A stretch of DNA of 64,000 bases from Myxococcaceae bacterium (GTDB taxonomy: Bacteria > Myxococcota > Myxococcia > Myxococcales > Myxococcaceae): the NCBI GenBank assembly GCA_016793095.1, contig JAEUJQ010000052.1:186001-250000 (forward strand). The letters are read 5' to 3'. This document shows, one piece after another, positions 1,223 to 29,221 of this stretch (position 1 is the first letter of the stretch; every line of letters begins with the position of its first letter). The notes beneath the pieces were generated by a model, which made no database searches, was not told where the DNA came from, and worked only from the letters and a program-made list of their open reading frames with translations. Position numbers and translations under genes: made by a program.

Positions 1223-3381
1223 CGCGGCTGTCGGTGCTCGCGCTGCTGATGGCGACCGACGGGCTGGCGGCCGAGCCGCTCAAGCTCTGGCACGCGTACC
1301 GGGGCGGCGAGGAGCAGGCGATCGAAGCCGCGGTGAAGAGGTACACCGACAAGACCGGAGTCCAGGTCGAGCTGCTCTCGGTGCCCTACGACGCGTTCTC
1401 GTCGAAGCTCACCAGCGCCATTCCCCACGACGCGGGGCCCGACGTCTTCATCTTCGCCCACGAGCGGCTGCGGCAGTTCCACCGGCTCAAGGTGATCGCG
1501 CCCTCCACCGGCCGCCTCGATCGCTCGAAGTACATCAAGAGCACCGTCGACGCCCTCGAGGTGGACGGCGAGCTGTACGGCTACCCGCTGTCGCTGAAGA
1601 CGCTGGCGCTGTTCCTCAACACCGAGCTGGTGCCCGACGCCCCTACCACCACCGACGACTGGCTGAAGGCCCTCGAGCGCACGACCGATCCCTCGAAGCC
1701 GCGCTTCGGGCTCGCCTATGCCGCGGGTGACTTCTACCTGCACGCGCCGTTCGTGTTCGGGTTCGGCGCGAAGCTCTTCGACGACACCACCGGCCGCGCC
1801 ACCTTCGACACGCCGGGCATGGCGAAGTCGCTCGCCTTCGTGAAGGGCCTGCAGGATCGGGGCTTCCTGCCGCAGGAGGTCTCGGGCGCGCTGGTGAAGT
1901 CCCTCTTCAACGAGGGCCGCGCGGCGATGGTGATCTCAGGGCCCTGGTTCACCGGTGAGATCGACCAGGCCGTGAAGTACCGCATCGTGCCGTTGCCGAC
2001 GGTGACCGAGACGGGCCTGCCGCTCATGCCGTTCCTCGGGGTCGAGGCGGCGCTCGTGTCCGCGCGCACCAGGCAGCCCGAGCAGGCGCAGGCGCTCGCC
2101 GAGTTCCTCTCGCTGGGAGAAGCCACCGCCCTGCGCGTCAACCCCGGCCGGCAGATCCCCGCCGAGCTCGCCGCCTACGAGCTGACCGAGGTGCAGCAGG
2201 ATCCCGTCATCTCGGCCTTCAAGGACGTGGCCGCGCGCGCGGTGCCGACGCCGAACACCCTCGAGATGGCGAAGGTGTGGGAGCCGATGAAGCTCGCGCT
2301 CCGCGGCGTGCTGCAGGGCGAGGTCGCTCCCGAGGCGGCAGGCCAGCTGGCCGAGCGGCGCTACCGGGCGCTGAACCGTGACCGGCCTCCCGACGCACCG
2401 AAGCTCCCGTACGCGATCGCCCTCGTCGTCGCCCTCGCGGGCTTCGCGTTCTGGCGGTGGACGAAGCGGGGCCCTGCGCAGGCGTTCGCGAGGCGCTACC
2501 CCGAGGCGGCGCGTGGGCTCGCGTGGGTCTCCCCGGCGGCGGTCGGCATCTTCGTGCTGATCGTCATCCCCTTCGTCTGGGGCATCTCGCTCGCGTTCTT
2601 CCACCACGACGCGGGCGAGTACTCCTTCGTCGGGCTCGCCAACTTCACCGACATCCTCACCTCGAAGGGCTACCGCGTCACCGAGCCCCTCTCGTTCTGG
2701 TTTACGCTCGCCGTCACCATCGCGTGGACGTTCGTCAACGTGACCCTTCACGTGTCGATCGGGCTCGCGCTGGCGATCCTGCTAAAGGATCCGCTGCTCA
2801 AGCTGCGCGGCGTCTACCGGGTGCTGCTGATCGTGCCGTGGGCCGTGCCGAACTACATCACCGCGCTCATGTGGAAGGGCATGTTCCACCGCCAGTTCGG
2901 CGCCATCAACGGGCTGCTCTCGGCGCTGGGGCTCGAGCCGGTGAGCTGGTTCACGCAGTTCTCGACCGCCTTCGCGGCGAACGTGATCACGAACACCTGG
3001 CTCGGCTTCCCCTTCATGATGGTGGTGTCGCTCGGCGCGCTGCAGTCGATCCCGCAGGATCTCTACGAGGCCGCCGAGGTGGACGGCGCCTCGAAGTGGA
3101 CGCAGTTTCGCCGCATCACCCTGCCGCTGCTCAAGCCCGCGCTGCTGCCGTCGGTGATCCTCGGCTGCGTGTGGACGTTCAACATGTTCAACATCATCTA
3201 CCTCGTGTCGGGCGGTGAGCCCGGCGGGGCCACCGACATCCTCGTGAGCGAGGCGTACCGTTGGGCGTTCCAGCGCAACGAGCAGTACGGCTTCGCGGCG
3301 GCCTACGCGGTGCTGATCTTCTTCGTGCTGCTCGGGTGGACTCGGCTGACCCGCCGCCTCACCGGCCCGGAGGCGGCATGA
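1219..3381 (+). CDS. Fused sugar-binding protein and MalF-type permease
   Basis: A 720-residue fusion of two ABC importer parts normally made separately. Residues 1-18 look like a signal peptide (ALLMATDGLAAEP). Residues ~20-385 are a family-1 extracellular solute-binding protein (KLWHAYRGGEEQAIE, GELYGYPLSLKTLALFLN, GPWFTGEIDQA). A transmembrane segment at ~392-410 then leads into a MalF-like permease with several helices and the EAA loop EAAEVDGASKWTQFRRITLP that contacts the ATPase. The GTG start overlaps the upstream stop (GTGA) and the stop overlaps the next start (ATGA). The receptor is therefore probably tethered to the membrane at the transport pore. The frame is continuous across the join. 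Confidence 0.88.
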   Translation: MTRLSVLALLMATDGLAAEPLKLWHAYRGGEEQAIEAAVKRYTDKTGVQVELLSVPYDAFSSKLTSAIPHDAGPDVFIFAHERLRQFHRLKVIAPSTGRLDRSKYIKSTVDALEVDGELYGYPLSLKTLALFLNTELVPDAPTTTDDWLKALERTTDPSKPRFGLAYAAGDFYLHAPFVFGFGAKLFDDTTGRATFDTPGMAKSLAFVKGLQDRGFLPQEVSGALVKSLFNEGRAAMVISGPWFTGEIDQAVKYRIVPLPTVTETGLPLMPFLGVEAALVSARTRQPEQAQALAEFLSLGEATALRVNPGRQIPAELAAYELTEVQQDPVISAFKDVAARAVPTPNTLEMAKVWEPMKLALRGVLQGEVAPEAAGQLAERRYRALNRDRPPDAPKLPYAIALVVALAGFAFWRWTKRGPAQAFARRYPEAARGLAWVSPAAVGIFVLIVIPFVWGISLAFFHHDAGEYSFVGLANFTDILTSKGYRVTEPLSFWFTLAVTIAWTFVNVTLHVSIGLALAILLKDPLLKLRGVYRVLLIVPWAVPNYITALMWKGMFHRQFGAINGLLSALGLEPVSWFTQFSTAFAANVITNTWLGFPFMMVVSLGALQSIPQDLYEAAEVDGASKWTQFRRITLPLLKPALLPSVILGCVWTFNMFNIIYLVSGGEPGGATDILVSEAYRWAFQRNEQYGFAAAYAVLIFFVLLGWTRLTRRLTGPEAA

Positions 3382-4223
3382 AGCGCTCCCAGCTCACCGT
3401 CGCGCTCGTGCACGTGGTGCTCGTCCTCGCCTGCGTGGCGTCGCTCTACCCGGTGCTGTGGGTCGTGAAGATGGCGCTGTCTCCGGCGCAGTCGCTCTCG
3501 CTGTCGCTCAACCCCTTCCCGCAGGAGGTGACGTTCGATCACTTCCGCGAGGTGCTCCTCTCACACGACAGCCAGGGGCGCTGGCTGTTCGGCCGGCAGC
3601 TGCTGGCCTCGGTGGTGGTGTCGGGCGCCACGACGCTCGTGGGCCTCTCGCTCGCGGTGACCGCGGCCTACGCGCTCTCGCGCTTCCGCTTCCCCGGGAA
3701 AGACGCGGGCATGCAGACGCTGCTGGTGACGCAGATGTTCCCGGCGACGCTCATGCTGGTGCCGCTCTTCGCGATCCTGCAGCGCCTGTCGCTGCTCGAC
3801 TCGTGGGGCGGGCTGGTGCTCGTGTACTCGACCACCTCGCTGCCGTTCTGCGTGTGGATGCTCAAGGGCTACTTCGACACCATCCCGCGCGAGCTCGAAG
3901 AGGCCGCGGTGATGGACGGCGCGTCGGCCTGGCAGGTGTTCTGGAAGGTGGTGCTGCCGCTGGCCCGCCCCGCCCTCGCGGTGACGGCGCTGTTCTCGTT
4001 CATGACCGCGTGGAACGAGTTCATCCTCTCGGCGACGCTCATCAACGACGCGGCTCGCTTCACCCTGCCCGTCGCCCTGCAACAGTACGTCGGTGAGTGG
4101 AAGACCGAATGGGGCCACTTCGCCGCCGGCGCCCTCGTCGTCTCGGCCCCGGTGATGGCCCTCTTCTTCGCGCTCCAGAAGTACCTCGTGGGCGGCCTCA
4201 CCGCCGGCGCCGTGAAGGGCTGA
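3378..4223 (+). CDS. MalG-type ABC sugar permease
   Basis: Second permease subunit (281 aa) of the same importer. It has an N-terminal helix (LVHVVLVLACVASLYPVLW) and further membrane segments. The EAA loop is EEAAVMDGASAWQVFWKVVL followed by PLARPAL, and the C-terminal region FALQKYLVGGLTAGAVKG matches MalG-family ends. The ATG at 3378 overlaps the upstream stop as ATGA, which fixes the start; the longer open frame upstream is not used. It should pair with the permease half of the fusion protein and the ATPase to form the complete importer. Confidence 0.9.
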   Translation: MKRSQLTVALVHVVLVLACVASLYPVLWVVKMALSPAQSLSLSLNPFPQEVTFDHFREVLLSHDSQGRWLFGRQLLASVVVSGATTLVGLSLAVTAAYALSRFRFPGKDAGMQTLLVTQMFPATLMLVPLFAILQRLSLLDSWGGLVLVYSTTSLPFCVWMLKGYFDTIPRELEEAAVMDGASAWQVFWKVVLPLARPALAVTALFSFMTAWNEFILSATLINDAARFTLPVALQQYVGEWKTEWGHFAAGALVVSAPVMALFFALQKYLVGGLTAGAVKG

Positions 4224-4271
4224 ACGCAGTCGGTGCACGTCTGCTCCTCATGCGGCATCTTCCCTTCCGCC

Positions 4272-5027
4272 ATGATCCGATCCCTGCTCCCAGTCCTCTT
4301 CCTCGTGGGTTGCGCCACTGCGAAGCCCGCCGTCTTCGATGATCTGCGCGCGCTCGACAAACAGCAGAACTACGTCGAGATGATGGGCCGGCTGAAGGAC
4401 GTGCCGCCGGCCGCTCGTGACGACGAGTGGGAGGGCTTCGTCGAGCGCGCCTCGATCGACGCCCTCGCGAAGGCCGAGATCAAAGACGCCAGCGCCGGCG
4501 AGGTGGCCCTGCGCACCATGGAGGAGCAGCTCGTCGCGTTCCCCTCGCTCAAGAAGTCGGCGGCCTGGTTCGCCGCCCGCGCGGACAAGGGGGTCGAGGC
4601 CTTCAAGTGGACGTACTCGAACTACCGCCACGCGACGAGCGATGAGCAGTGGGTGCCGAAGGTCGTCGCGTTCGTCGAGAAGGACACGCTGACGAAGGGG
4701 CTCGCGCAGCGCTTCGCGAAGGACGTGGTGGCCGCGCGCCTCGTGGCCTCGAGCGCCTGGCCGCTCTACGAGCTCGCCTTCAAGCGTGACGGTGATGGGG
4801 TGTGCGCTGACGCGAAGCTGGTGGACGTGGTGATCGACGTCATCGACTACCAGAGCTGGCTCGACGTGATGAAGCCGCTGGTGACGACCCGCTGCGCCGC
4901 GCAGCTCAAGAAGCCCGTGGCCGAGAAGCTGAAGAAGAACGACAGCACCTCGTTCCGCAAGGGCGCCTGCAAGGTGCTCGAGGGGCAGGCTGACGTCGCG
5001 GAGGCGCTGAAGATCTGCGAGGGCTGA
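4272..5027 (+). CDS. Putative lipoprotein of unknown function
   Basis: A 251-residue protein starting MIRSLLPVLFLVGCATAK. This is a lipoprotein signal with lipobox LVGC, so it is probably anchored in the inner or outer membrane facing the periplasm. The remainder is mostly helical and charged, with repeated Lys/Glu/Ala segments, and no domain is recognised. The ATG at 4272 is preferred over an in-frame ATG at 4233 because it places the lipobox at the N terminus. It lies 48 bp after the sugar permease in the same direction, but nothing ties its role to transport. Confidence 0.75.
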   Translation: MIRSLLPVLFLVGCATAKPAVFDDLRALDKQQNYVEMMGRLKDVPPAARDDEWEGFVERASIDALAKAEIKDASAGEVALRTMEEQLVAFPSLKKSAAWFAARADKGVEAFKWTYSNYRHATSDEQWVPKVVAFVEKDTLTKGLAQRFAKDVVAARLVASSAWPLYELAFKRDGDGVCADAKLVDVVIDVIDYQSWLDVMKPLVTTRCAAQLKKPVAEKLKKNDSTSFRKGACKVLEGQADVAEALKICEG

Positions 5028-5076
5028 CGCTCACGGCGCCCACCGGGGCGCTCGAGTGACCGTAGAATGACGCCTG

Positions 5077-6159
5077 GTGTTCCGCGCGCTGGGTCTGGCT
5101 CCACTCTCGATCGCCCCGCTCGCCGAGCCGCGCCCGGACTCCTTCCGCGTGGTGCGCGCCGAGCACGGCTGGTTGCTCGAGACGAGCGGGGAGGTCGTCA
5201 GCGTGCGCCGCCGCCTGCAGCAGGAGGTGATGGTGCCCCGGCAGACGCGCTCCCTGCTCGAAGACGGCGACGTGCTGTGGGGCTCCCGCGACGGCCTGCT
5301 GATCGCGCCCGAGCCCGAGCATCGGGAGCCTGCGCTCGAGCGCCGCGCCGTCGAGAACTGGGATCACACCGCGCACTGGGGCGTGCTCGCGGACCACCTG
5401 CTCGATCACGGCGACCCGCTCGGTGAGCAGATCTCGGCGGCGCTCGGGCGGCGCTCGGCGACGCCGCTCTCGCCGCACACGTGGCTCGGAACGCACTGGC
5501 GCCATGGGGTGCTGCGCCGCGTCTTCATCAGCCGCCCTGAGTGGGCCGGCCGGGTGCCGTGGCGCGAGGCGCTCCTCGAGGTGCTCTGCGCGCGCAGCGG
5601 CCGCTTCCTCGAAGAGGTCTCCATCGATCTCCCGCGGCTCGAGCCCGAGGCGACCGCCGCAGAGCTGGCCCCGCTGGCTCACGAGCTGCTCACCCTGCCC
5701 TGGCCGCGGTGGCTCACCCGCCTGGACTTCGGCCTCATGTCCACCCCGCCGAACGTGGCGACTCCCCAGCGCCTCCTCGAGGAGCGGCCGCGGCTCGCGC
5801 GTGGTGCGCTCTTTCACCGGGCCGATCACGCCCGCCTCGTGCTCGAGGCAGGCTCCGACGCGTTCGCGCTCGACGGGCTGCGGGGGGACTCGCTGGACCT
5901 CGCCGAAGGCCTGCGCCTGCGCGTGTTCCCGAAGAAGGTCCTCTTCGAGCGCCCGCAGTGGCCCCGCTACGACTCGTGGCCCTCGTGGGACTTCGCGTTC
6001 CACGACGGGCGGTGGTTCGTTGCGTGGAGGCACGGCGCGCCGCGCAGCGACGACGTCAAGCTCAACGGCATGGAGTTCTTCAACGCCGCGCTCGTGCCTG
6101 GTGACCGCGTCGAGATCATGGAGCACCTCGTCCTCCGCTTCGAGGTGAGCGCGGAGTAG
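5077..6159 (+). CDS. TIGR02996-like protein with FHA-like C terminus
   Basis: A 360-residue protein. Around residues 88-125 it carries NWDHTAHWGVLADHLLDHGD, then PLGEQISAALG, closely resembling the TIGR02996 repeat-companion domain (VYADWLEERGDP..EFI) seen in many myxobacterial paralogues. The following segment (GTHWRHGVLRRVFI, FLEEVSIDLPRL) fits the leucine-rich-like region those proteins carry. The last ~35 residues (VKLNGMEFFNAALVPGDRVE, then IMEHLVLRFEV) resemble the end of an FHA fold, so phosphopeptide binding is possible but unproven. Translation would start at a GTG; no strong ribosome-binding site is visible. The cellular role is unknown. Confidence 0.7.
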   Translation: MFRALGLAPLSIAPLAEPRPDSFRVVRAEHGWLLETSGEVVSVRRRLQQEVMVPRQTRSLLEDGDVLWGSRDGLLIAPEPEHREPALERRAVENWDHTAHWGVLADHLLDHGDPLGEQISAALGRRSATPLSPHTWLGTHWRHGVLRRVFISRPEWAGRVPWREALLEVLCARSGRFLEEVSIDLPRLEPEATAAELAPLAHELLTLPWPRWLTRLDFGLMSTPPNVATPQRLLEERPRLARGALFHRADHARLVLEAGSDAFALDGLRGDSLDLAEGLRLRVFPKKVLFERPQWPRYDSWPSWDFAFHDGRWFVAWRHGAPRSDDVKLNGMEFFNAALVPGDRVEIMEHLVLRFEVSAE

Positions 6160-6169
6160 CCTCGGGCGC

Positions 6170-6970
6170 GTGCTCCCCCTCCTCGTGCTGTTGACCCTCG
6201 GCGCCGACGCCCCCGAGCGCCCGAAGCTGGTGGTGTTGTCCCTCGAGATGCCGGCGGGCGTCGATCCCGCGGTGCGGGGCGCGTTCGACGACGCCGTCGC
6301 CGCAGAGGCCGGCCGACGGGGGTACTTCGAGGTCGTCTCGTCGCGCGAGGTGCAGTCGCTGCTCGGGCTCGAGCGGCAGAAGCAGCTCCTCGGCTGCGCC
6401 TCCGACGCCAGCTCGTGTCTCGCAGAGCTGAGCGGCGCGCTGGGCGCCCGCTTCCTGATGACGGGCACCCTGGCCCCGCTGGGCGCGAGCTGGCAGCTCT
6501 CGCTCCAGGTGCAGGACACCACGAAGTCCAGCACCGTCGGGCGCAGCACCCGGATCGCGAAGAACATCGAGGCGCTTCGGGGGCTCTTGCCGTGGGCGAT
6601 CGCGGAGGCCACCGCCACGCCCCCGCCCCCCGCGCCCTCGAAGGTCGGTCCCCTCGTCATGATCGTCGGTGGAGGCCTCGTCGCAGCCGCCGGTGGCATC
6701 TTCGGCCTGCAGGCGCTGGGCACCGAGGTCTCGTTGCGGCGCGAGCTCGACCGCGGCGTCGACGTGCCCGGGCGGCTCGACACCCTCGCCTCGTACCAGG
6801 CGCAGGAGCGCCCACTCACCATCCAGAAGGCGCTCGGCCTCGTCGGGCTGATCGTGGGCGGCACGGTGCTGGCCGGGGGCATTCTGTTGTGGCCACCCGA
6901 CGTCGCCCGCGCCCAGATCTCCCTCGTCCCAACCGGGACCGGCGCCGCCGTCGTGGGAGTCTTCCCATGA
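6170..6970 (+). CDS. Secreted/membrane protein with CsgG/TolB-like N-terminal domain
   Basis: A 266-residue protein starting at GTG with a short hydrophobic leader (MLPLLVLLTLGADAPE). Residues ~20-150 match a pattern common in myxobacterial envelope proteins: a degenerate CsgG/FlgO-like fold with FEVVSSREVQSLLGLERQKQ, then GCASDASSCLAELSGALGAR and FLMTGTLAPLG. Two hydrophobic segments at ~163-185 and ~223-246 probably span the membrane. The stop overlaps the next start (ATGA), so it is co-translated with the following lipoprotein. The molecular function is not known; an envelope-associated role is inferred. Confidence 0.7.
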   Translation: MLPLLVLLTLGADAPERPKLVVLSLEMPAGVDPAVRGAFDDAVAAEAGRRGYFEVVSSREVQSLLGLERQKQLLGCASDASSCLAELSGALGARFLMTGTLAPLGASWQLSLQVQDTTKSSTVGRSTRIAKNIEALRGLLPWAIAEATATPPPPAPSKVGPLVMIVGGGLVAAAGGIFGLQALGTEVSLRRELDRGVDVPGRLDTLASYQAQERPLTIQKALGLVGLIVGGTVLAGGILLWPPDVARAQISLVPTGTGAAVVGVFP

Positions 6971-9348
6971 GGGTCGCGGCGCTGACGATCGTGACGGTGC
7001 TCGTGGGCCAGGCCTGCCGAACCGAGCTCGACCTCGACCGGGGCCGAAGGTACGCGTGCGCACGCGACGCGGGGGTGGGGGCCGATGGCGGCACTGACCA
7101 GTGCTCCGCCGGCTTCCGCTGCGGCCTCGACGGGTACTGCTTCGACCCGGACGCCGGAGAGCCGCGCGCCTGCGAGGGCCCCCTCGACTGCTCGACAGGC
7201 TGGCGCTGTGGGCTTGCCGTGAATGGCGTGGGCGCGTGCCAACGAGTCGGCGTTCCCGCCCCCTACCCGTGCCTCGACGACTCGTGGTGCGAGGGCGGCT
7301 GGCGCTGCGGTCCAGGCGGGGTCTGCCTCGAAGCGACGAACGACGCCCTCCTCGCTCCTCCCGGCCGCGCCCGCCCTGCCTCGATCCTGAGCCCTGCCCC
7401 CTTCCCGCTCCGCGGCTTCGGCGCCGCGATGACGGACAACGGGGAGTGGCAGGCGATCGCCCTCGGTCCCGGCGCCGTCCAGGTGCTGACCGTCGGCCAG
7501 CGGGAGTTCTGGGCACGCCGGCTCCCGATCGACGGCGGCCTGTTCGCGGTGCGCTCCGGCGATGTGCTCGCAGTCGCCGATGACAGGGGCTCGACCCAGG
7601 TCGGCCCGATCATCGGGCAGGACGTGTCACTCGCTCCGGTCGCGTTCCCCGGCTTCCGGCCAACGGGGCTCGTCCTCTCTCCCGGCTACAAGCCCCACTG
7701 GAGACCGAACCTGCCAGCCCCGGGCCTGCTCATCGCCTGGACGCCGAGCCGGTTCGCCGCGTGGAACCTCGACGGCCACGCCCTCGAGCCGCTGCCGGCG
7801 CCGCCGGGCGCGACGGCCGCCATCGACACCTGGCGCACGCCCATCACGCGGGGACCGCGCGAGGAGAGCCGCCTCGTCGCAGCGACCAGCCAGGGCCTCT
7901 TCGAGCTGATCCGTGACGGTGACGGCGGGTGGACTCCGCTCCCCTCCTCGAGGAAGTGCGGAGCGCCCATCGCGGCGCGCTACGTCGAAACCGGCGAGGA
8001 GGACGGCGGAGAGGACGCAGGGGCCCTTCAACGCGGGAACTCCCCGCCGGCCGTCGCGGCCCTCTTCCAGGCCCAGGACGGCGGGACGCCCTGTGGCGTC
8101 CTCTACGATCGACTGGCCGACGGCGGAGTCGAGGCCGCCGTGGAAGCAGAGGTCTGTGACTCCGAGTCGACAGCGACGGGCCTCCGGCCCGCGGACGAAC
8201 AGCTCAGCGGTGTCTGGGTTCAGTGCCGCGCGCCGGGAGGGACCGTGCGAGAGGTCGGCCTGTGCCGCTCGACGAACTGCCCCGCGAGCGCCGCGCCGGC
8301 TGCGCAGGAGAGAGCGCGCGCCTCCGCCAGGGACAGCGACGTCATCGTCGACGAGCTGGGCTTCACGGCGCGTCAGCAGTTCAAGACCCTCGAGCGGCCG
8401 CTCTTCGGGTCAGGCGTTGGCACGTGGGGCGTCGAGCGCGACACGCTCGTGTCGGTGACCCGCGGCGCCGACGGAGGCCTCGAGGTCCTCGGGCGAAGGG
8501 CGGCCGGTGATGGAGGCCTCGTGCGCTTCACCGACGTCGCGGGCGTCGGCTTCGTCCGCGCGAGCGGAGACGACGGCGTTCAGCCGCTGACCAACGTCGT
8601 CGGCTGGCCGGGGGTGCGGGTGCTCGCGAACGGCGAGATCCGCACCGGTGACGAGCAGGCGCTGGCGCGGGTCGATCCGATCCGGCCGCTCGAGGGCGAC
8701 GTCACCGCGGTCGGGCGTCCCGAGGGTGACGGCGGGTTCCTCTACGTCAGCAGCTTCGACGCGCTGTTCGCGGGGCCGATCAACCCGGAGGCCCCGATGG
8801 CGCTGCGGCTGGTCCCGGCGAGTCGCAGCGCGATCACCTCGCTCGCCGCAGCTCCCGGACCGGTGAGCCTGCCAGATGGCGGCGTCGTGCAGCGCTGGGG
8901 GTACCTCGTGGCGCAGGGTCGGCTCTTCCGCTTCGAGTCACGGAACCGGGTGTGGCGCAGCGACGAGATCGAGCTGCCAGAGCTCGCCGTCAGCGTCTGG
9001 TTCGACGGGGTGCGCGGGCGCGTCGGCACCAGCACGGGCCGGGTCTTCGGCCTGCCGACCCGGGTGCCGCTCTCCGAACCGCTGGCCGGCGCTGCGACGA
9101 GCTACGCGAGCCTCTGCGGGCACGCCTTTGCGGCCACTCCCGCCGGCGTCTTCACGCTCGAGCGCCCCGACGCGGGGCTCGCCACCTGGCGACTGCACGA
9201 GGAGCTCGCCCTTGCCCTGCCGAGGCGGAGCGGCGCTGGCCTTCCCGGCGACGGGCTGCGCCTGATCCCGCTCGACACACAGCTGGTCGCGGTGAACGCT
9301 GACGGCGTCGTCGCCAGCATCGCCTTTGAATGCGGAGGAGCCCCATGA
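6967..9348 (+). CDS. Large Cys-rich putative surface lipoprotein
   Basis: A 793-residue protein with an N-terminal hydrophobic stretch ending at a cysteine (IVTVLVGQAC), probably a lipoprotein signal. Residues ~25-125 hold three short Cys-rich repeats of the form CSAGFRCGLDGYCF, CSTGWRCGLAVNGVGAC and CEGGWRCGPGGVCL, each preceded by Asp/Gly spacers. The rest is rich in beta-strand-like segments and DGG turns, possibly a propeller-like fold, with several further cysteines. The start is fixed by the ATGA overlap with the upstream gene, and the stop overlaps the next gene. Function unknown; the operon context suggests a cell-envelope complex. Confidence 0.72.
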   Translation: MRVAALTIVTVLVGQACRTELDLDRGRRYACARDAGVGADGGTDQCSAGFRCGLDGYCFDPDAGEPRACEGPLDCSTGWRCGLAVNGVGACQRVGVPAPYPCLDDSWCEGGWRCGPGGVCLEATNDALLAPPGRARPASILSPAPFPLRGFGAAMTDNGEWQAIALGPGAVQVLTVGQREFWARRLPIDGGLFAVRSGDVLAVADDRGSTQVGPIIGQDVSLAPVAFPGFRPTGLVLSPGYKPHWRPNLPAPGLLIAWTPSRFAAWNLDGHALEPLPAPPGATAAIDTWRTPITRGPREESRLVAATSQGLFELIRDGDGGWTPLPSSRKCGAPIAARYVETGEEDGGEDAGALQRGNSPPAVAALFQAQDGGTPCGVLYDRLADGGVEAAVEAEVCDSESTATGLRPADEQLSGVWVQCRAPGGTVREVGLCRSTNCPASAAPAAQERARASARDSDVIVDELGFTARQQFKTLERPLFGSGVGTWGVERDTLVSVTRGADGGLEVLGRRAAGDGGLVRFTDVAGVGFVRASGDDGVQPLTNVVGWPGVRVLANGEIRTGDEQALARVDPIRPLEGDVTAVGRPEGDGGFLYVSSFDALFAGPINPEAPMALRLVPASRSAITSLAAAPGPVSLPDGGVVQRWGYLVAQGRLFRFESRNRVWRSDEIELPELAVSVWFDGVRGRVGTSTGRVFGLPTRVPLSEPLAGAATSYASLCGHAFAATPAGVFTLERPDAGLATWRLHEELALALPRRSGAGLPGDGLRLIPLDTQLVAVNADGVVASIAFECGGAP

Positions 9349-9716
9349 AGACGCTGTCCATGACTGTGCTGGCGAGCGCCCTGGCGTGCGGGGCGCTGCC
9401 GCTCAAGACGCCCTTCGTGGGGTTGACGCCGGGCGGCGCGTGCACCGCAGACACTGACTGCGCGATCGGCGCGTGCCCCAACGCCTGCAACCTGGGTCAG
9501 CCCTTCTGCACGTACCCGAACGTCTACCTGCGCGCTGACGTCGAGAAGGCCTGTCCATGCGTGAAGACGCCGGCCGCCGCGACCTGCGCCCCACCCACCG
9601 GAGAAGCCTGCGGCCCACAGCCGGGCTGCGCTCAGCCCGCCGACGCCGCGCTCCTCGCCGCTCGCTGCGTGGCCGGGAAGTGCGTGGGCCAGCTGCCCGA
9701 TGGCGGCGTGCCGTAA
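9345..9716 (+). CDS. Small cysteine-rich lipoprotein
   Basis: A 123-residue protein. The ATG at 9345 is preceded by GGAGGAG at a good distance and overlaps the upstream stop as ATGA. The leader MKTLSMTVLASALACGALP has a lipobox ALAC. The mature part contains fourteen cysteines in closely spaced pairs (CTADTDCAIGACPNACNLG, ACPCVKTPAAATC, ACGPQPGCAQ). This suggests a disulfide-knotted extracytoplasmic protein. It is the third gene of a tightly overlapping set beginning at 6170. No family is recognised. Confidence 0.72.
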   Translation: MKTLSMTVLASALACGALPLKTPFVGLTPGGACTADTDCAIGACPNACNLGQPFCTYPNVYLRADVEKACPCVKTPAAATCAPPTGEACGPQPGCAQPADAALLAARCVAGKCVGQLPDGGVP

Positions 9717-9791
9717 CGCGGCGACACCCGAGCAGCAACACGGGCGCCGGGGCCTGTTGCACGAAACGACGACGTTGCTACGACGGCGCCC

Positions 9792-12700
9792 ATGCGCCTG
9801 CGTCTGCTCGCCATCGGACTGATCCCCTTCACCCTCGCCTGTCCCACCAACTCCCGCCCGGACGGCGGCATGGCGCAGCCCCCGACGATCTCGGCCGTCT
9901 CCCCCACCACCGGCCCCATCACCGGCGGCACCACCGTCACCATCACCGGCTCGCGCTTCGCGGACGGCGCTACGGTGAAGTTCGGCGAGGCGTCCGGCCT
10001 GCAGGTCGTCGTGACGAACGCGCTCCGCCTCACCGCGCGCACCCCGGCCGTGACGAACCCCGGGCGCGTCGGCGTCACCGTCACCAACCCCGACGGGACC
10101 TCGGCCACCCTGCCCGACGCCTTCACCTTCGAGGCGGGCATGATGCGCACCATCACCGAGGCCATCGTCACCCTGCCCGCGACCGCGAGTGATCGATCGG
10201 GCAGCGCGACGGTGATGGCGACGGTGACGGCGCAGGTCGAAGTGCCGAACGTCACGCGGGGCGTCGGGCCGGGCATGGGCGTGCGGGCGCAGGTGGGCTT
10301 CGCGACGATGCTCTCGGCGACCCCTGCGGAGTCCGACTTCACGTGGACCGACGCGACGCACTCGGGTGACGCCGATGGCGCGATGGCTGGCGACCTGGCC
10401 CGCGACGTCTACACCGGCGCGGTCAGCCTGATGGGCGTGACGACGACGCCCCGCACCTACCGCCTCGCCGCCCGCTTCTCGGTGGACAACGGCATGACCT
10501 GGAAGCTGGCCGACCGCGACGGCAGCGCGAACGGTGTCCAGGAGGCACAGGTGCCCCGCTTCGTCGTCGAGCCGAAGGGCATCGACTGGTGCCGAATGGG
10601 CGGGCAGTCGGTGGGCATGGTGCCTCCGTCGGTGATGCTGCGTGGGAACCAGACCGGCCCGGTCGTCTACGCGCAGGTCTTCGCCATGGGCCGCACCGAG
10701 GCGATGGGCGCGGGCTCGGGCGTCAAGGGCCAGCTCGGCTATGGCCTCATGGGCTCGGATCCCGCGACCTGGACGTGGGTGGACGGCGCCTTCAACACCG
10801 ACCTCGGCAACAACGACGAGTGGCGCGCGACGCTGCCCAACCCCGGGCAGGGCACGTACCGCTTCGCGTGGCGCTTCAACCTCGATGACGGCGCCTCGTA
10901 CGCGTACTGCGACAACGATGGCCTCGCGATGAACGGCTTCACCGAGGATCAGACGGGCACGTTGAGCGTGACGGCCCCCGGCATCGACAGCTGCGTGCTG
11001 CAGTTCCCCAACAACGCGCAGGCGCTGGTGAACGCGGTGGGGCCGGCGGTGTACGGGCGGGTCTTCGCGGGGGGCGTGACGGATCAGCTCGACGGCGGCG
11101 CACCGCCGATGACGCTCACCATGGAGCTCGGCATCGGCCCCGGCGGCGTACAGCCGGATCAGAGCTCGTGGACCTGGCAGCCAGCGACCTTCAACCCCGT
11201 CGCGGTGATGGGTGGGGGAGCCGAGTACGAGGCACGCCTGCCGGCCGTCGTCCAGGGCACCTACGCCTATGCGTTCCGCGCGCGGCTGGGGGCCACCGGC
11301 ACGTACTCGTACTGCGATCTCGATGGCAGCCAGAACGGCTTCCAGCCGAACCAGGCCGGCGTCTACACGGTCGCGCCGTTCAGCTTCTCCGAGTGCCGCG
11401 TGCAATTCCCGGCGTCCCTCTCCGGGTACGAGGGCCGGCAGAGCGGCCCCATCTTCGGGCAGGTGTTCGCGCCGGGCGTGACGAGCGTGGCGCCTGACGC
11501 GGGCGCGCCGCCGGACGTCGAGGCGCAGCTCGGCTTCGGGCCGAACAACAGCGATCCGCAGACGCCCGACGCCGGGTGGACCTGGGCGGCCGGTGCCTTC
11601 AACGTCCCTGTGATGGGTGGGGGCGTCGAGTACCAGGGGCGCCTCACCAGCGCGAGCAGCGGCACGTTCAACTACGCCTGGCGCGTGCGCTACCAGGGCG
11701 GCGCGTGGACGTACTGCGATCGCGACGGCGCCTCCAACGGGTACCAGGCGGCGCAGGCGGGCGTGTACACGGTCACGCCCTTCAGCTTCGCCGAGTGCCG
11801 CCTGCAGTTCCCCGCGAGCCTCACCGCGTACGAGGGGCGGCCCAGCCCGCTCGTCTACGGGCGCCTCTTCGCTCCGGGCATCACCGACGTTCCCGACGCG
11901 GGCGCGCCGACAGGCGTCGAAGCGGAGCTGGGCTTCGGGCCGCTCAACTCCACGCCGTCGGACGCAGGGTGGACGTGGGCGGGCAGCGCCTTCAACGTGC
12001 CGGTGATGGGCGGCGGCGTCGAGTACCAGGCACGGCTCACCGGCCCCGCGCCGGGCAACTACCACTACGCGTACCGCGCGCGGCACCAGGGCAGCGCCTG
12101 GCAGTACTGCGATCGCGACGGCGCGGCGAACGGCTACCAGACGGCGCAGGCAGGCGCGCTCACCGCGCTGCCGCTCGCGGTCGAGCAGTGCTTCGTCGAC
12201 ACCGCGTCGAACACCGCCCTGCCGTCCACCCCCGTGGCGAGCGGCTACCTCGCGAGGGTGAAGGTGCCCACCATCACCGACGTGACGGGGATGCCCTCAG
12301 GGCTCATCGCGCAGATCGGCTACGGGGCACAGGGAACACAGCCGTCCACCTGGACGACCTGGAGCGCCGCGACCTGGAGCGCCGACGCGATGATGGACTT
12401 CGACGCGTACTCGGGGAGCTTCACCGCGCCGGCCATGGTGGGGAGCTACGACGTCGCCTTCCGTGTCCAGGTCGGGTCGAACGCCTTCGTGTACTGCGAT
12501 CGCGACGGCTCGCAGAACGGCTACTCCAGCGCGCAGGCCTCGCAGTTGCTGGTGTCGAGCGCGGTGCTGAGCGCTTGTCAGCTGATCATGCCCAGCGCCT
12601 TCAGCGTCGAGAGCGGCAGCCCGCTGACGGCGTCGGTCAGCGTCGAGGCGACGGGCACTTCGGCGAGCGGGCAGGCGCCGAACGTGCGGGCGCAGCTCGG

Positions 12701-25241: not shown

Positions 25242-26444
25242 TCAGGCCAGGCCCTTCGCCTCGCGTTCCTTGATGAGGCGGTCGAGCTCCTCGCGGATGA
25301 TGGTCTCGGCGAGCTGGGGCACCACTTCCCAGGCGATCTTCTCGATGACGTCTCTCGAGGCGGCCGAGAGCGCGGCGCGCAGCTGAGCCTCGCCACCGTC
25401 GGCGGGCTTGTCGTCGAGCGACAGGGTCTCGTGGTGGGGCTGGGCGTGAGGCGGCGCGTGGGGGTGGTGCGGCGCGTGGGGCTGGCCGGGCATCGGCGGG
25501 CGACCGGGCGGTGGGCCCATCGGCCGACCCTGCATGGGTCCACCGGGTGGAGGCGCCCCGAGGCCGAAGGGATCACGGCGCTGCATCGGCGCACCGGGGA
25601 GCGGCGCGCCACCCGGGGGACGCGGCAGCCCGGGCCCACCCATTCCAGGACCGGGCGGCATTCCAGGGCCGGGCATTCCCGGCGGTCGTGGCATGCCGGG
25701 CTGGGTCCCCATCGGGACACCTGGCGGTCGAGCCATGCCGGGGCCCGGCATTCCCGGGGCGCCAGGCATTCCCGGCGGCCGCATGCCGGGCTGGGTTCCG
25801 GGTGGAATGCCAGGCCCGGGAGGACGCGCCATGCCGGGACCCGGGGGCATTCCGGGCCGCATCCCGGGCTGGGTACCGGGGGGAATCCCGGGGCCCGGAG
25901 GCCGCGGCATGCCTGGACCCGGCGGCATGCCCGGGCCGGGCGCCATCGGGTTGCGCATCATGCCGGGCTGGGTGCCCATGGGGATGCCGGTGGGCGGCGC
26001 CGCGACCGGCGGACGCGCGACAGGCGCCGTGGCGGTGGAGACTGGCGCGACGGTGGTGATCGGCCCTGCGCCCGGCGCCATGCCGACGAGCGCTCGCACC
26101 CGCTCCATGAAGCCCTGGCTGTCGAAGGGCTTGACGATGTGGGCGGTCGCTCCCGACGCGCGGGCGCGGTTCTCGTCGAAGGGCTCGAAGGTGCCCGCGA
26201 GCAGCATCACGGGCGTCGCAGCCGTCGAGGGGTCGTGCCGGATCGCCTGCGCGACCTCGTAGCCGGTCTTCCCCGGCATCATGCAGTCGGCGATGACGAG
26301 ATCGGGCCTCAGCTCCCGCGCCTTGTTGATGGCGTCGATGCCGTTGTCCACCATCGTCACGGTGAAGTCTTCGGTCGAGAACACCATGCCGATGACCTTC
26401 CGCATGGTGATGGAATCGTCAGCGACCAGAACGCTCTTGGGCAT
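25242..26444 (-). CDS. romR: RomR-type polarity response regulator
   Basis: A 400-residue receiver protein. Residues 1-120 form a receiver domain with D9/D10, phospho-acceptor D53 (IADCMMPGK), T85 and K105. A long Pro/Gly/Met-rich linker (~125-330) of [12 protein letters not shown] repeats follows. The conserved C-terminal helix is [20 protein letters not shown] then [18 protein letters not shown]. This layout matches Myxococcus RomR, which sets front-rear polarity with MglA/MglB and whose phosphosite is also D53. A CheW-like gene lies 99 bp upstream and a divergent GGDEF gene beyond it. Assignment rests on architecture and context, not alignment. Confidence 0.78.
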
Positions 26445-26543
26445 CTTCGTTGTCTTTCGAGGGCCGGACAGTTCCGGCGAGATGGCGTCAGGAGTGTAGG
26501 CAGCCGGCTCTTTCCAGCCAAGAAAAGTACGCTGCCACGGCGC

Positions 26544-27284
26544 TCAGCCGAGGGTCGCGACCGCGTCGATCACCTGCGCGTCCCCGAGGGCGTCAGCGCC
26601 CTTGACGCCGTGCGCGCGTGACGCCGAGAGCGCGACCGGCCCGGAGGGCAGCTCGATGACGATCAGCAGGCCCTCGGCGTCGGTCCCGGTGAGTGAGAAC
26701 GCCGGCACGAGGCGCTGCTGGTGCATCAGCACCCCGACGAAGGCGCCCACGCCCGGCGCGGCGTTGAACATCGGCCCCTTCGACGCCACCTGCGAGACGT
26801 CCGCGAGGGGCAGCGCGAGGTGCAGCGGCCCCGAGTCGAAGACCAGGCACGGCCCCTTCGCGGTCGTCGTGGCCAGCTCGAGGCGCTTCGCCTGCCTCGG
26901 CAGCCCCCGCACCAGGTGCGCGACGTCGAGCTCGAACGACAGCCCCGCCTCCGACACGAGCCCCTGCTTCACCACCGGCGCGACGAGGTGCACGAGGCGG
27001 TTGGGCAACGGGAGCGTGAGGTGCGGGGCCGCGTCGAAGACCCCCTCGACCCGACGCGTGCGCGCCGCCACCGTGGGGCTCGAGTCGAGGAGGATGACGG
27101 TGCCCGGGCGCTCTTCGGGATCACCCCCGAGCAGCACCGAGAGATCACGAATGGCCAGGTGCCCGCGCAGCGTCTCGTCGTCTCCCACCGCGCGCGCGAC
27201 CTCGACCACGCTGGTCGCCTCGATGGCGTAGCGGGTGCGCGCCGCTTCGAAGAACACACACAGCCGGCGCTCCGAGAGGTTCAA
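26544..27284 (-). CDS. Tandem CheW-like domain protein
   Basis: A 246-residue protein that reads as two CheW-like folds. The first is RRLCVFFEAARTRYAIEATS with VVEVARAV and RGHLAIRDLSVLLGG. The second is GPCLVFDSGPLHLALPLADV with VSQVASKG and a GAFVGVLMHQQRLVPAFSL core. CheW domains couple receptors to CheA kinases. No receptor or CheA is visible here, so it may instead be a scaffold for the neighbouring regulators. It is transcribed toward romR (99-bp gap) and is divergent from the diguanylate cyclase (53-bp gap). Sequence similarity to canonical CheW is weak. Confidence 0.65.
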   Translation of the reverse strand: MNLSERRLCVFFEAARTRYAIEATSVVEVARAVGDDETLRGHLAIRDLSVLLGGDPEERPGTVILLDSSPTVAARTRRVEGVFDAAPHLTLPLPNRLVHLVAPVVKQGLVSEAGLSFELDVAHLVRGLPRQAKRLELATTTAKGPCLVFDSGPLHLALPLADVSQVASKGPMFNAAPGVGAFVGVLMHQQRLVPAFSLTGTDAEGLLIVIELPSGPVALSASRAHGVKGADALGDAQVIDAVATLG

Positions 27285-27337
27285 GGCGAATCCGCTGCGG
27301 GAAAAGCCCGCGTCATCTGGTACGACGAGCCTCGACC

Positions 27338-28732
27338 ATGGCGCAGATCCTGTTGGTGGACGACGAAAAGGTCGCGCGCACCCTGTACGCCGACTTCCTC
27401 ACGGGGGCAGGCCACCAGGTCGTGTCCGCGGCGTCCACCGCAGACGCGCACACCGCGCTCGCGAGCCAGAAGTTCGACCTCGTCGTCACCGATCTGATCT
27501 TCCCGCAGTCGGACGGCATGGAGCTGCTTCAGTCCGTGAAGTCGCGGTACCCGGGCTGTGAGGTGCTCGTCATCACCGCGCTCGACAAGGTGGAGCCTGC
27601 GGTGCGCGCCATCAAGAGCGGCGCCTCGGACTACCTCGTCAAGCCCGTCACCCCCGAGGTGCTCGCTCAGGCCGTCGTCCGGGCGCTCACGCAGAACTCG
27701 CTGCTCAAGGAGCACGAGGCGCTGCGCCGCTACGTGACCCTGCTCGAGGCCGGCCAGCGCATCGCCACCACGCTCGAGCGCGATCGCCTGATCGAGACGG
27801 CGAGCGCGGGCTTCCTGTCGTTGTGCGCCGCCGACGCCGCGGCCCTCTTCATCCGCGACGAAGACGCGCTGACGCTCGCGGGCTGGGCGGGCGCTCCAGA
27901 AGACGGCCGCGAGGCGCTCACCAGCGTCCTCACCCCGCTCGTCTCCACCGCCCTCGCCGCCCACCCCCGCTTCGGCCGGGAGCTCGAGCTCACCGAGGCG
28001 CACGGGCCCTACGACACCGCCTTCCTCCTGCCCGCGATCGACGGCGACACGCAGCTCGGCGCGGTGGTGCTGCTCTTCACCGGCGACATCCCCGACGCGG
28101 GCGTCGAGGCCGGCGCCTACCTCGCGCGGCACCTCTCGCTCGCGCTGAAGAACCTGGGCCGCTTCGCCGAGGTGGAAGATCTCGTCTACCTCGACGATCT
28201 CACCCACCTCTTCAACAGCCGCTACCTCGAGCTGGTGCTGGACAAGGAGTTCAAGAACTCGACGAAGGACGCCAAGCCCTTCTCCCTGCTCTTCCTCGAC
28301 CTCGACTACTTCAAGAGCGTCAACGACACCCACGGCCACGTCGTGGGATCGAAGCTGCTCGTCGAGGTGGCGCGCGTGCTGAAGGGCTGCGTGCGCGACA
28401 ACGACATCGTGTGCCGATGGGGCGGTGACGAGTACGTGCTGCTGCTCCGGGGCACCGACTCGGGCGGCGCCCTCAAGGTGGCCGAGCGCATTCGCCGCGC
28501 CGTCGAGAGCCACCGCTTCCTCGCGCGCGAGGGCTTCGGGCTCAACATCACGACCTGCATCGGCATCGCCACCTGGCCGGAGCACGCGCAGGACAAGGAC
28601 ACCCTGCTCGACTTCGCCGATCGCGCGATGTACCGCGGCAAGAAGGGCTCGCGGAACATCATCTACATGGCGTCGAAGGGCCTCGAGGCGACGCCCGCGG
28701 CGCGGCACCAGACCCAGCCGCCAGAGGAGTGA
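27338..28732 (+). CDS. REC-GAF-GGDEF diguanylate cyclase response regulator
   Basis: A 464-residue cytoplasmic regulator. Receiver domain 1-120 carries D8/D9, phospho-acceptor D52 (VTDLIFP) and K102. A GAF-like domain spans ~130-275. A GGDEF domain spans ~285-445 with active site GGDEY (362-366) and an intact inhibitory RxxD site (RDND, 353-356). It should make cyclic di-GMP from GTP and be product-inhibited. It is divergent from the CheW-like/romR pair. In Myxococcus xanthus I recall a GGDEF protein encoded two loci from romR, consistent with this order. The stop abuts the convergent PilQ-like gene with no spacer. Confidence 0.9.
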   Translation: MAQILLVDDEKVARTLYADFLTGAGHQVVSAASTADAHTALASQKFDLVVTDLIFPQSDGMELLQSVKSRYPGCEVLVITALDKVEPAVRAIKSGASDYLVKPVTPEVLAQAVVRALTQNSLLKEHEALRRYVTLLEAGQRIATTLERDRLIETASAGFLSLCAADAAALFIRDEDALTLAGWAGAPEDGREALTSVLTPLVSTALAAHPRFGRELELTEAHGPYDTAFLLPAIDGDTQLGAVVLLFTGDIPDAGVEAGAYLARHLSLALKNLGRFAEVEDLVYLDDLTHLFNSRYLELVLDKEFKNSTKDAKPFSLLFLDLDYFKSVNDTHGHVVGSKLLVEVARVLKGCVRDNDIVCRWGGDEYVLLLRGTDSGGALKVAERIRRAVESHRFLAREGFGLNITTCIGIATWPEHAQDKDTLLDFADRAMYRGKKGSRNIIYMASKGLEATPAARHQTQPPEE

Positions 28733-29221
28733 TCACTCCACGTCGCGGACGATCAGCGTGTTGGTGCGCGCGTCCACGCTCACCGTGCCCCGCGGCGACA
28801 AGAGGCCCTTCACCTGCTGCGCGAGCTCCTCGGCGTTCGCGTAGTTGACGGGGATGAGGCGCACTGAGAGCGGCCTCTCGGCGAGCTGGGCGTCCTGCAC
28901 CTTGCGGCGCGCCTCGGCCTCCTCGGCCAGCTTCGAGAGCGGCGCCACCCGCACGATCGAGCCGACCCGCTCGACGCCCAGCCCCTTCGACGCCACCACC
29001 ACCCGGAACGCCTCGTCCCAGGGCACGTTCCGCAGCTTCAGCGTCACCTTGCCCGACACCTCCTCGCTGGTGACGAGGTTGAAGCGGCCCACCTCGGCGA
29101 ACAGGCGCAGCACCGAGTGCAGCTCGGCGTTGTGCAGCTCGAGGCTGATGCGGCGTGGCGCCCCCGCGAGCGCAGCCGTGGAGGTGCAGAGGGTGAGGGC
29201 GAGGACGAGGGTGGTGCGCAT
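28733..29221 (-). CDS. Short PilQ-like secretin N-domain protein (no secretin pore)
   Basis: A 162-residue protein with signal peptide (LALTLCTSTAALA). An STN/N0-like domain follows (ISLELHNAELHSVLRLFAEV, TLKLRNVPWDEAFRVVVASK), then an N1-like segment (RLIPVNYANAEELAQQVKGL, VSVDARTNTLIVRDVE). This is the order found before the pore of PilQ-type secretins, yet the gene stops right after the TLIVRD motif. It may be a stand-alone periplasmic adaptor for a type IV pilus or secretion machine, or a decayed remnant. The stop forms TGATCA with that of the converging cyclase gene. Confidence 0.78.
   Translation of the reverse strand: MRTTLVLALTLCTSTAALAGAPRRISLELHNAELHSVLRLFAEVGRFNLVTSEEVSGKVTLKLRNVPWDEAFRVVVASKGLGVERVGSIVRVAPLSKLAEEAEARRKVQDAQLAERPLSVRLIPVNYANAEELAQQVKGLLSPRGTVSVDARTNTLIVRDVE

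Follow-up and report, generated by a model that had tools for sequence, protein, structure and literature searches.

A tandem CheW-fold protein encoded beside romR in Myxococcota looks like the fusion of an older gene pair

RomR is a determinant of the front and back ends of the cell in gliding soil bacteria, and the Wsp system combines two CheW-like adaptors, WspB and WspD, with the receiver-GGDEF protein WspR. Here, we describe a locus in which components of both kinds lie together. In a window of 64,000 nucleotides from a Myxococcaceae bacterium (assembly GCA_016793095.1, contig JAEUJQ010000052.1, positions 186,001 to 250,000 of the forward strand; "the window" refers to this whole stretch), romR lies directly downstream of a gene for a protein with two CheW-fold domains, which we call CheW2, and this gene is in turn divergent from a gene for a diguanylate cyclase. 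Wsp and this locus share a CheW-type adaptor gene beside a receiver-GGDEF cyclase gene, but the CheW2 locus is without CheA, methyl-accepting chemotaxis protein (MCP), CheR and CheB genes and has RomR in their stead. CheW2 looks like a fusion because its two CheW domains occur as separate neighbouring genes beside romR in four other families of the Myxococcota.

Several described systems offer further points of comparison. In Myxococcus xanthus, RomR (MXAN_4461) is reported to have a linker and a C-terminal region (RomR-C) that are each enough for polar targeting (PMC3441718), while the mechanism of its polar localisation is stated to be unknown, and RomR has been postulated to recognise a landmark that depends on cyclic di-GMP (c-di-GMP), though no such landmark has been found (PMC11255338). 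FrzE is described as not having been shown to be the RomR kinase, with intermediates possible (PMC4546325), and how the polarity module responds to Frz signals is likewise stated to be unknown (PMC10329633, PMC11255338). In Vibrio, the CheW-like (AIF) domain of ParP is reported to bind MCP and CheA, and the protein serves to tether arrays to ParC (PMC5706961). ParP and CheW2 are both CheW-like proteins in or near a pole-determining system, but the former has one AIF domain and a ParC-binding region at its N terminus, whereas CheW2 consists of two CheW domains throughout. In Bdellovibrio, RomR contacts a GGDEF-family protein, CdgA, at the pole according to two-hybrid data (PMC3983030, PMC11025332), which would be a precedent, by analogy, for a direct contact between RomR and a GGDEF protein. 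However, CdgA is a degenerate GVNEF receptor of c-di-GMP, whereas the cyclase of the window is predicted to be intact and receiver-controlled. The portions of the literature on M. xanthus RomR consulted here do not mention an adjoining CheW-like gene, and the literature searched yielded neither the name MXAN_4462 nor a description of a romR-CheW2-cyclase locus, which is not proof that none exists.

According to its AlphaFold2 model, CheW2 consists of two CheW-fold domains in tandem. Pfam gives a single CheW match just at the cut-off (23.7 against 23.5 bits, residues 146-199), and PF01584 is matched by 20 of 21 aligned orthologues (best E 7.7e-14). No useful match came from a sequence search of the PDB with CheW2 alone; with a CheW2 profile, the best 4 of 8 matches (E up to 1) were all CheW (E 0.001-0.0022), the structures 4jpb_W, 1k0s_A and 3ja6_A being matched at E 0.001-0.0016. 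The model has a mean predicted local distance difference test score (pLDDT) of 91.2 and a predicted template modelling score of 0.87, and in it the whole chain of 246 amino acids is taken up by the two domains. The first 18 PDB chains found with it by Foldseek, at probability 1.00, all belonged to CheW, CheA or chemotaxis core units. Structure alignments with VIA-align, which cover domain 1 (residues 5-125), gave Z 14.3 to the P5 domain of CheA (2ch4_A; 2.3 Å over 116 residues) and Z 13.7 to CheW (9a72_B; 2.7 Å over 123 residues), and for the model in general, Z values were 14.3-8.9 with CheW and CheA and at most 4.4 with other folds. Domain 2 is assigned from the Pfam match, the profile match and the secondary structure of the model. 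The original prediction, made from the sequence, had proposed a two-fold CheW-like protein and had named structure prediction as a way to refute it; the predicted structure gave the CheW fold, and the AlphaFold2 model and its PDB matches point to two CheW-type domains, though Pfam sees one. The possibility that this open reading frame arose by chance or was miscalled is rejected by the conservation of its orthologues, its fold and its linkage. We also treated the open frames of 745-790 amino acids seen in a few high-GC genomes as stop-free frames rather than real CheW2 fusions, because the CheW2 matches in them end within 247 profile positions.

CheW2 shares the fold of canonical CheW, but it has two tandem domains in 246 amino acids instead of one of about 140-150, and compared with CheW and the P5 domain of CheA, its hairpins are trimmed in a complementary manner. 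The hairpin with the NLRG motif of CheW is missing from domain 1 in the alignment; in domain 2 this first hairpin is retained (GVLMHQQRLVPAFSL), but its canonical Arg is not, and most of the last hairpin is gone. The Arg of the NLRG motif is important for receptor binding in CheW. Given this degeneration, CheW2 does not appear to be a simple replacement for CheW.

To determine how general the association with romR is, we surveyed the neighbourhoods of both genes in 195 Myxococcota genomes; families are numbered (f), their kinship to the window is that printed for them (same family, order, class or phylum), and "Myxococcus-like" is a name that we inferred. Searches with the single protein found CheW2 relatives in 91 of the 195 genomes and profile searches gave matches in 127, many of them ordinary CheW, while a contig scan with CheW2 found only 5 close relatives. 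In the window's own family, 87 genomes carry a full or partial CheW2 (A1 profile), and in 75 of these RomR-C is found downstream on the same contig and strand. The distance between the two is at most 2.15 kb in 74 of them and 4.4 kb, with two genes between, in the other (G152); thus, the conserved linkage that the original prediction had put forward as a check is borne out by romR lying just downstream, on the same strand, in 74 family genomes. In the tables, RomR-C is not on the contig of CheW2 in the other 12 of the 87, which include two genomes in which the receiver part of romR adjoins CheW2 at the contig end (G068, G111) and one in which it follows after one inserted gene (G150). Wherever family loci have enough flank, the cyclase gene is divergent from CheW2 and adjoins it. 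The order of the genes survives even at 28-33% CheW2 identity. A full CheW2 match is absent from G149, of the window's genus, and the small genomes G144 and G145, of the same family, have romR without CheW2 and without the cyclase. As a separate observation, two sister genomes have a conserved gene of about 600 amino acids between CheW2 and romR (L010, 1405-3210; L012, 4321-6114).

The same arrangement, with the cyclase gene divergent from a tandem CheW gene that is followed by romR, is found in other families of the order, namely in 8 of 9 usable loci of f3 (with about 1 kb between CheW2 and romR in G053), in the one usable locus of f7 and in 2 of 4 in f8. A layout shared by about 75 genomes of the family, and found again in three more families of the order, is more than chance. 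Four loci within the order (L069, L074, L078, L089) were dropped because the contig did not include the receiver end of romR or this end could not be located, and three others with no RomR-C on the available stretch (L012, L044, L045) were counted by receiver-domain matches. In some loci (L060, L063, L076; f2 and f4), a gene that we read as groEL-like is located upstream of romR, in the place of the CheW gene.

Outside the order, 5 of 21 usable romR loci have two separate genes, each encoding about 130-160 amino acids, immediately upstream of romR and in its orientation. These pairs, which we call cheWa and cheWb, come from G192, G193 and G194 (f31), G189 (f28) and G182 (f24), while G183 (f25) has such a pair in divergent orientation to romR, and it is missing from two other f25 genomes. 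The loci L093, L111, L113, L114, L117, L118 and L119 were dropped, their receiver end being off the contig or not found. All 10 proteins of the co-directional pairs match PF01584 (E 2.6e-12 to 0.016, 5 of the 10 over the cut-off), the second genes at E 2.6e-12 to 5.5e-5 and the first genes at E 1.5e-6 to 0.016. An AlphaFold2 model of cheWa from G192, built with five relatives, has the CheW fold (pLDDT 88.9; Z 14.2 to CheW 2ch4_W in VIA-align, 2.6 Å over 126 residues), and its strands lie at nearly the same positions as those of domain 1 in the CheW2 model. A tree computed for 50 domains places domain 1 with cheWa (81/76) and domain 2 with cheWb (93/92). From the gene order, the hairpin missing from the first half and this tree, we favour, without regarding it as proven, that domain 1 is orthologous to cheWa and domain 2 to cheWb. 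CheW2 then looks like the product of a fusion within an older cheWa-cheWb pair that was tied to romR, this being the simpler reading, with the direction of change as we infer it. Since the unfused versions adjoin romR in Myxococcota families outside the order, the link between CheW and romR would be older than the order itself.

CheW2 is best seen, first of all, as a partner of RomR, given that romR is the gene common to most of the pairwise arrangements that survive. It could quite plausibly, although we say so tentatively, be a dedicated RomR adaptor that derives from an ancestral cheWa-cheWb pair beside romR and that links RomR to a CheA-type kinase complex or to a site at the pole. According to this proposal, ancestral Myxococcota would have encoded separate and degenerate cheWa and cheWb proteins directly beside romR, and these would have been fused into the tandem CheW2 in the order that includes the Myxococcus-like bacteria. 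The two domains of CheW2 may then serve as a scaffold rather than couple receptors in the ordinary way, bringing the RomR receiver to a CheA-type kinase complex, for which the Frz-type kinase would be the obvious candidate, or to a site at the pole, in a manner that might be likened to that in which the CheW-like domain of ParP ties arrays to the Vibrio pole anchor. Such a scaffold might also take the kinase to the pole. The divergent, receiver-controlled cyclase would have been added in this order, where the same kinase contact could set the local concentration of c-di-GMP. A bolder version, which we consider somewhat unlikely, is that RomR began in an orphan chemosensory-type cheWa-cheWb-romR unit, that the fused CheW pair is the physical link from Frz to MglA and RomR, and that the cyclase was wired in later.

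There is no CheA or MCP gene at the CheW2 locus, and the CheW and CheA matches of the genome lie elsewhere. Contig C19 carries a Frz-type cluster with genes, named from our own reading of the sequences, for a dual receiver, CheW, MCP, CheA-REC, CheB and CheR-TPR. No frzB is visible between the CheW and receptor genes of this cluster (L120, about 2438-10200), and the tandem CheW at romR is a candidate for a functional substitute.

Several observations weigh against a dedicated RomR adaptor of this origin. The split pair is present in only four deep families, while nine others with a usable locus have no such pair beside romR, and swapped pairings of the domains were not rejected by the approximately unbiased test (p 0.273 and 0.222, at a cost of 5.5-6.2 log units). 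Within the order, romR occurs without CheW2 in all usable loci of f2 (6), f4 (1), f5 (1), f6 (1) and f9 (2), as well as in G045 of f3, where the cyclase and romR are divergent and 130 bp apart; in the window's own family, CheW2 is gone from between adjacent cyclase and romR genes in G105, and even in the window's genus the linkage is broken or interrupted in four genomes (G150, G151, G152, G153). The NLRG Arg is found in none of 15 domain-2 sequences and none of 6 cheWb proteins, against 5 of 5 stand-alone CheW proteins of the same genome, and domain 1 and cheWa both lack the hairpin that would carry it, so the usual binding to arrays is doubtful. As for the cyclase, a role in the motility of growing M. 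xanthus cells is reported for DmxA alone among the cyclases (PMC11255338), and this speaks against a strong influence of the romR-side cyclase on motility during growth.

The missing canonical Arg and hairpin would also be expected if the CheW-like domains formed a polar landmark or scaffold unrelated to chemosensory kinases, which would help RomR to find the pole or to be reset there, perhaps through c-di-GMP. The postulated landmark mentioned above would fit such a role, and no kinase or receptor gene was recognised by eye among the listed open reading frames beside romR in L096, L098 and L102. Nevertheless, we regard a role of this kind as unlikely, as the linker and RomR-C of the M. xanthus protein are each reported to suffice for polar targeting and several RomR lineages have no CheW genes. 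Some of these breaks, such as those in the window's genus and the absence of CheW2 from f2, might instead suggest that three independently useful genes share a stable neighbourhood and no function. That is very unlikely in our opinion, given that the association recurs in unfused form outside the order and that the gene order persists where CheW2 itself has diverged so far.

The cyclase gene raises another possibility. Its product has clear REC and GGDEF domains (Pfam E 1.7e-24 and 9.1e-43), and the GGDEY and RDND sites noted in the original prediction are found at residues 362-366 and 353-356. The GAF domain that was also proposed is not well supported, the GAF_3 match in the middle of the protein being under the cut-off (E 0.017) and PF01590 being matched by 3 of 19 orthologues (best E 0.0032). 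Residues D8, D9, D52, T80, K102, R353, D356 and GGDE 362-365 are invariant in 57 of 57 loci, which correspond to 51 distinct ones (the same places appear under two locus ids) at 47-100% identity; such residues would show the pattern of an active, phosphorylation-controlled and product-inhibited cyclase. In M. xanthus, 11 GGDEF proteins are reported as predicted cyclases, of which DmxB is developmental and nine are of unknown function (PMC11255338). The romR-side cyclase of that species is very likely MXAN_4463, given the adjacency of its number to that of romR, its length and its listing among cyclase deletions; the deletion table gives it 458 amino acids (PMC4877007), and the cyclase has 457 in three Myxococcus-like genomes. 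MXAN_4463 is reported to share at least two DifE-specificity residues with DifD (PMC4671073). Together with the intact phosphorylation residues of the receiver in all these loci and with the cyclase-CheW2 pairs that stay together, apart from romR, in G151 and G153, this could mean that CheW2 mainly serves the cyclase, as the adaptor that feeds input into a Wsp-like c-di-GMP branch, with romR as a mere neighbour. We find this quite unlikely, however, because in all six split-pair loci there is no cyclase within 4 kb of romR, in four deep families, and because the cyclase stays with romR where CheW2 has been lost (G045, G105). The link of the cyclase to CheW2 and romR in this order is real but younger, the cyclase having joined later. 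The reading of the original prediction, in which the CheW-like protein may connect RomR to a kinase or to the cyclase, is supported in part, but its picture of one module has to be modified, as the cyclase is absent from the deep cheWa-cheWb-romR loci and the links are separable in sister genomes.

The RomR of the window has the layout that had been described for it, that is, a receiver with D53, a Pro-rich linker and a conserved C-terminal region. Compared with the published M. xanthus protein (PMC3441718), it has the same D53 receiver, Pro-rich linker and C-terminal helix with an invariant W-P region, while the sequence of the linker differs. The receiver matches PF00072 at residues 5-116 (E 4e-20), and D53, D9 and D10 are kept in 79 of 79 loci (76 of them distinct). 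After the non-conserved linker, the C-terminal region is 70-87% identical to the RomR-C of 14 other loci, with its Trp and Pro invariant in 15 of 15 aligned sequences, and the RomR-C profile finds it in 171 of the 195 genomes. Of the 79 RomR loci, 59 have Ala and only 9 have Thr or Ser at the usual Thr/Ser switch position of receivers, which we located in our own alignment by its distance from the conserved Lys. In addition, the romR of a Myxococcus-like genome (G122, L054) goes out of frame in the linker, with RomR-C in another frame, and resembles a truncated romR noted in M. fulvus (PMC3441718).

The features of the locus are collected in the table; the three open reading frames were all found where the original prediction had placed them. 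CheW2 and romR are likely co-transcribed, judging from their spacing. The neighbours of CheW2 are romR, the cyclase gene, an open reading frame that we read as valyl-tRNA synthetase-like and one with PilQ-like N domains. The latter (28733-29221, minus strand, 162 amino acids) lies tail-to-tail directly after the cyclase gene and has STN and secretin N domains only; its best match is the N-terminal part of PilQ (TIGR02515, E 4.8e-42, positions 2-152 of 428).

Table. Features of the romR-CheW2-cyclase locus (positions are those of the window).
Feature	Position	Strand	Details
romR, 400 aa	25242-26444	-	receiver ~26097-26432, Pro/Gly-rich linker, RomR-C helix region
RomR-C profile match	25254-25430	-	G000:C79:211254-211430
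Spacer between romR and the CheW-like gene	26445-26543		99 bp; flanking genes on the same strand
Tandem CheW-fold protein CheW2, 246 aa, TTG start	26544-27284	-	Pfam, AlphaFold2, Foldseek, VIA-align
Predicted CheW-fold domain 1 (residues 5-125)	26910-27272	-	VIA-align and alignment; without NLRG-type hairpin
Predicted CheW-fold domain 2 (residues 144-246)	26547-26855	-	Pfam CheW 146-199; CheW structures found with the profile
Divergent intergenic region between CheW2 and cyclase	27285-27337		53 bp between starts
Diguanylate cyclase, 464 aa	27338-28732	+	REC ~27347-27676, weak GAF-like middle, GGDEF ~28187-28657

The conserved tie between romR and a CheW-type adaptor, which other families of the Myxococcota have in unfused form, appears to be undescribed in the literature searched. 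It would make CheW2 a specific candidate for a component of the signalling from Frz to polarity and of the process by which RomR finds the pole, and the locus gives a genomic reason to re-examine one of the nine cyclases of M. xanthus to which no function has been assigned.

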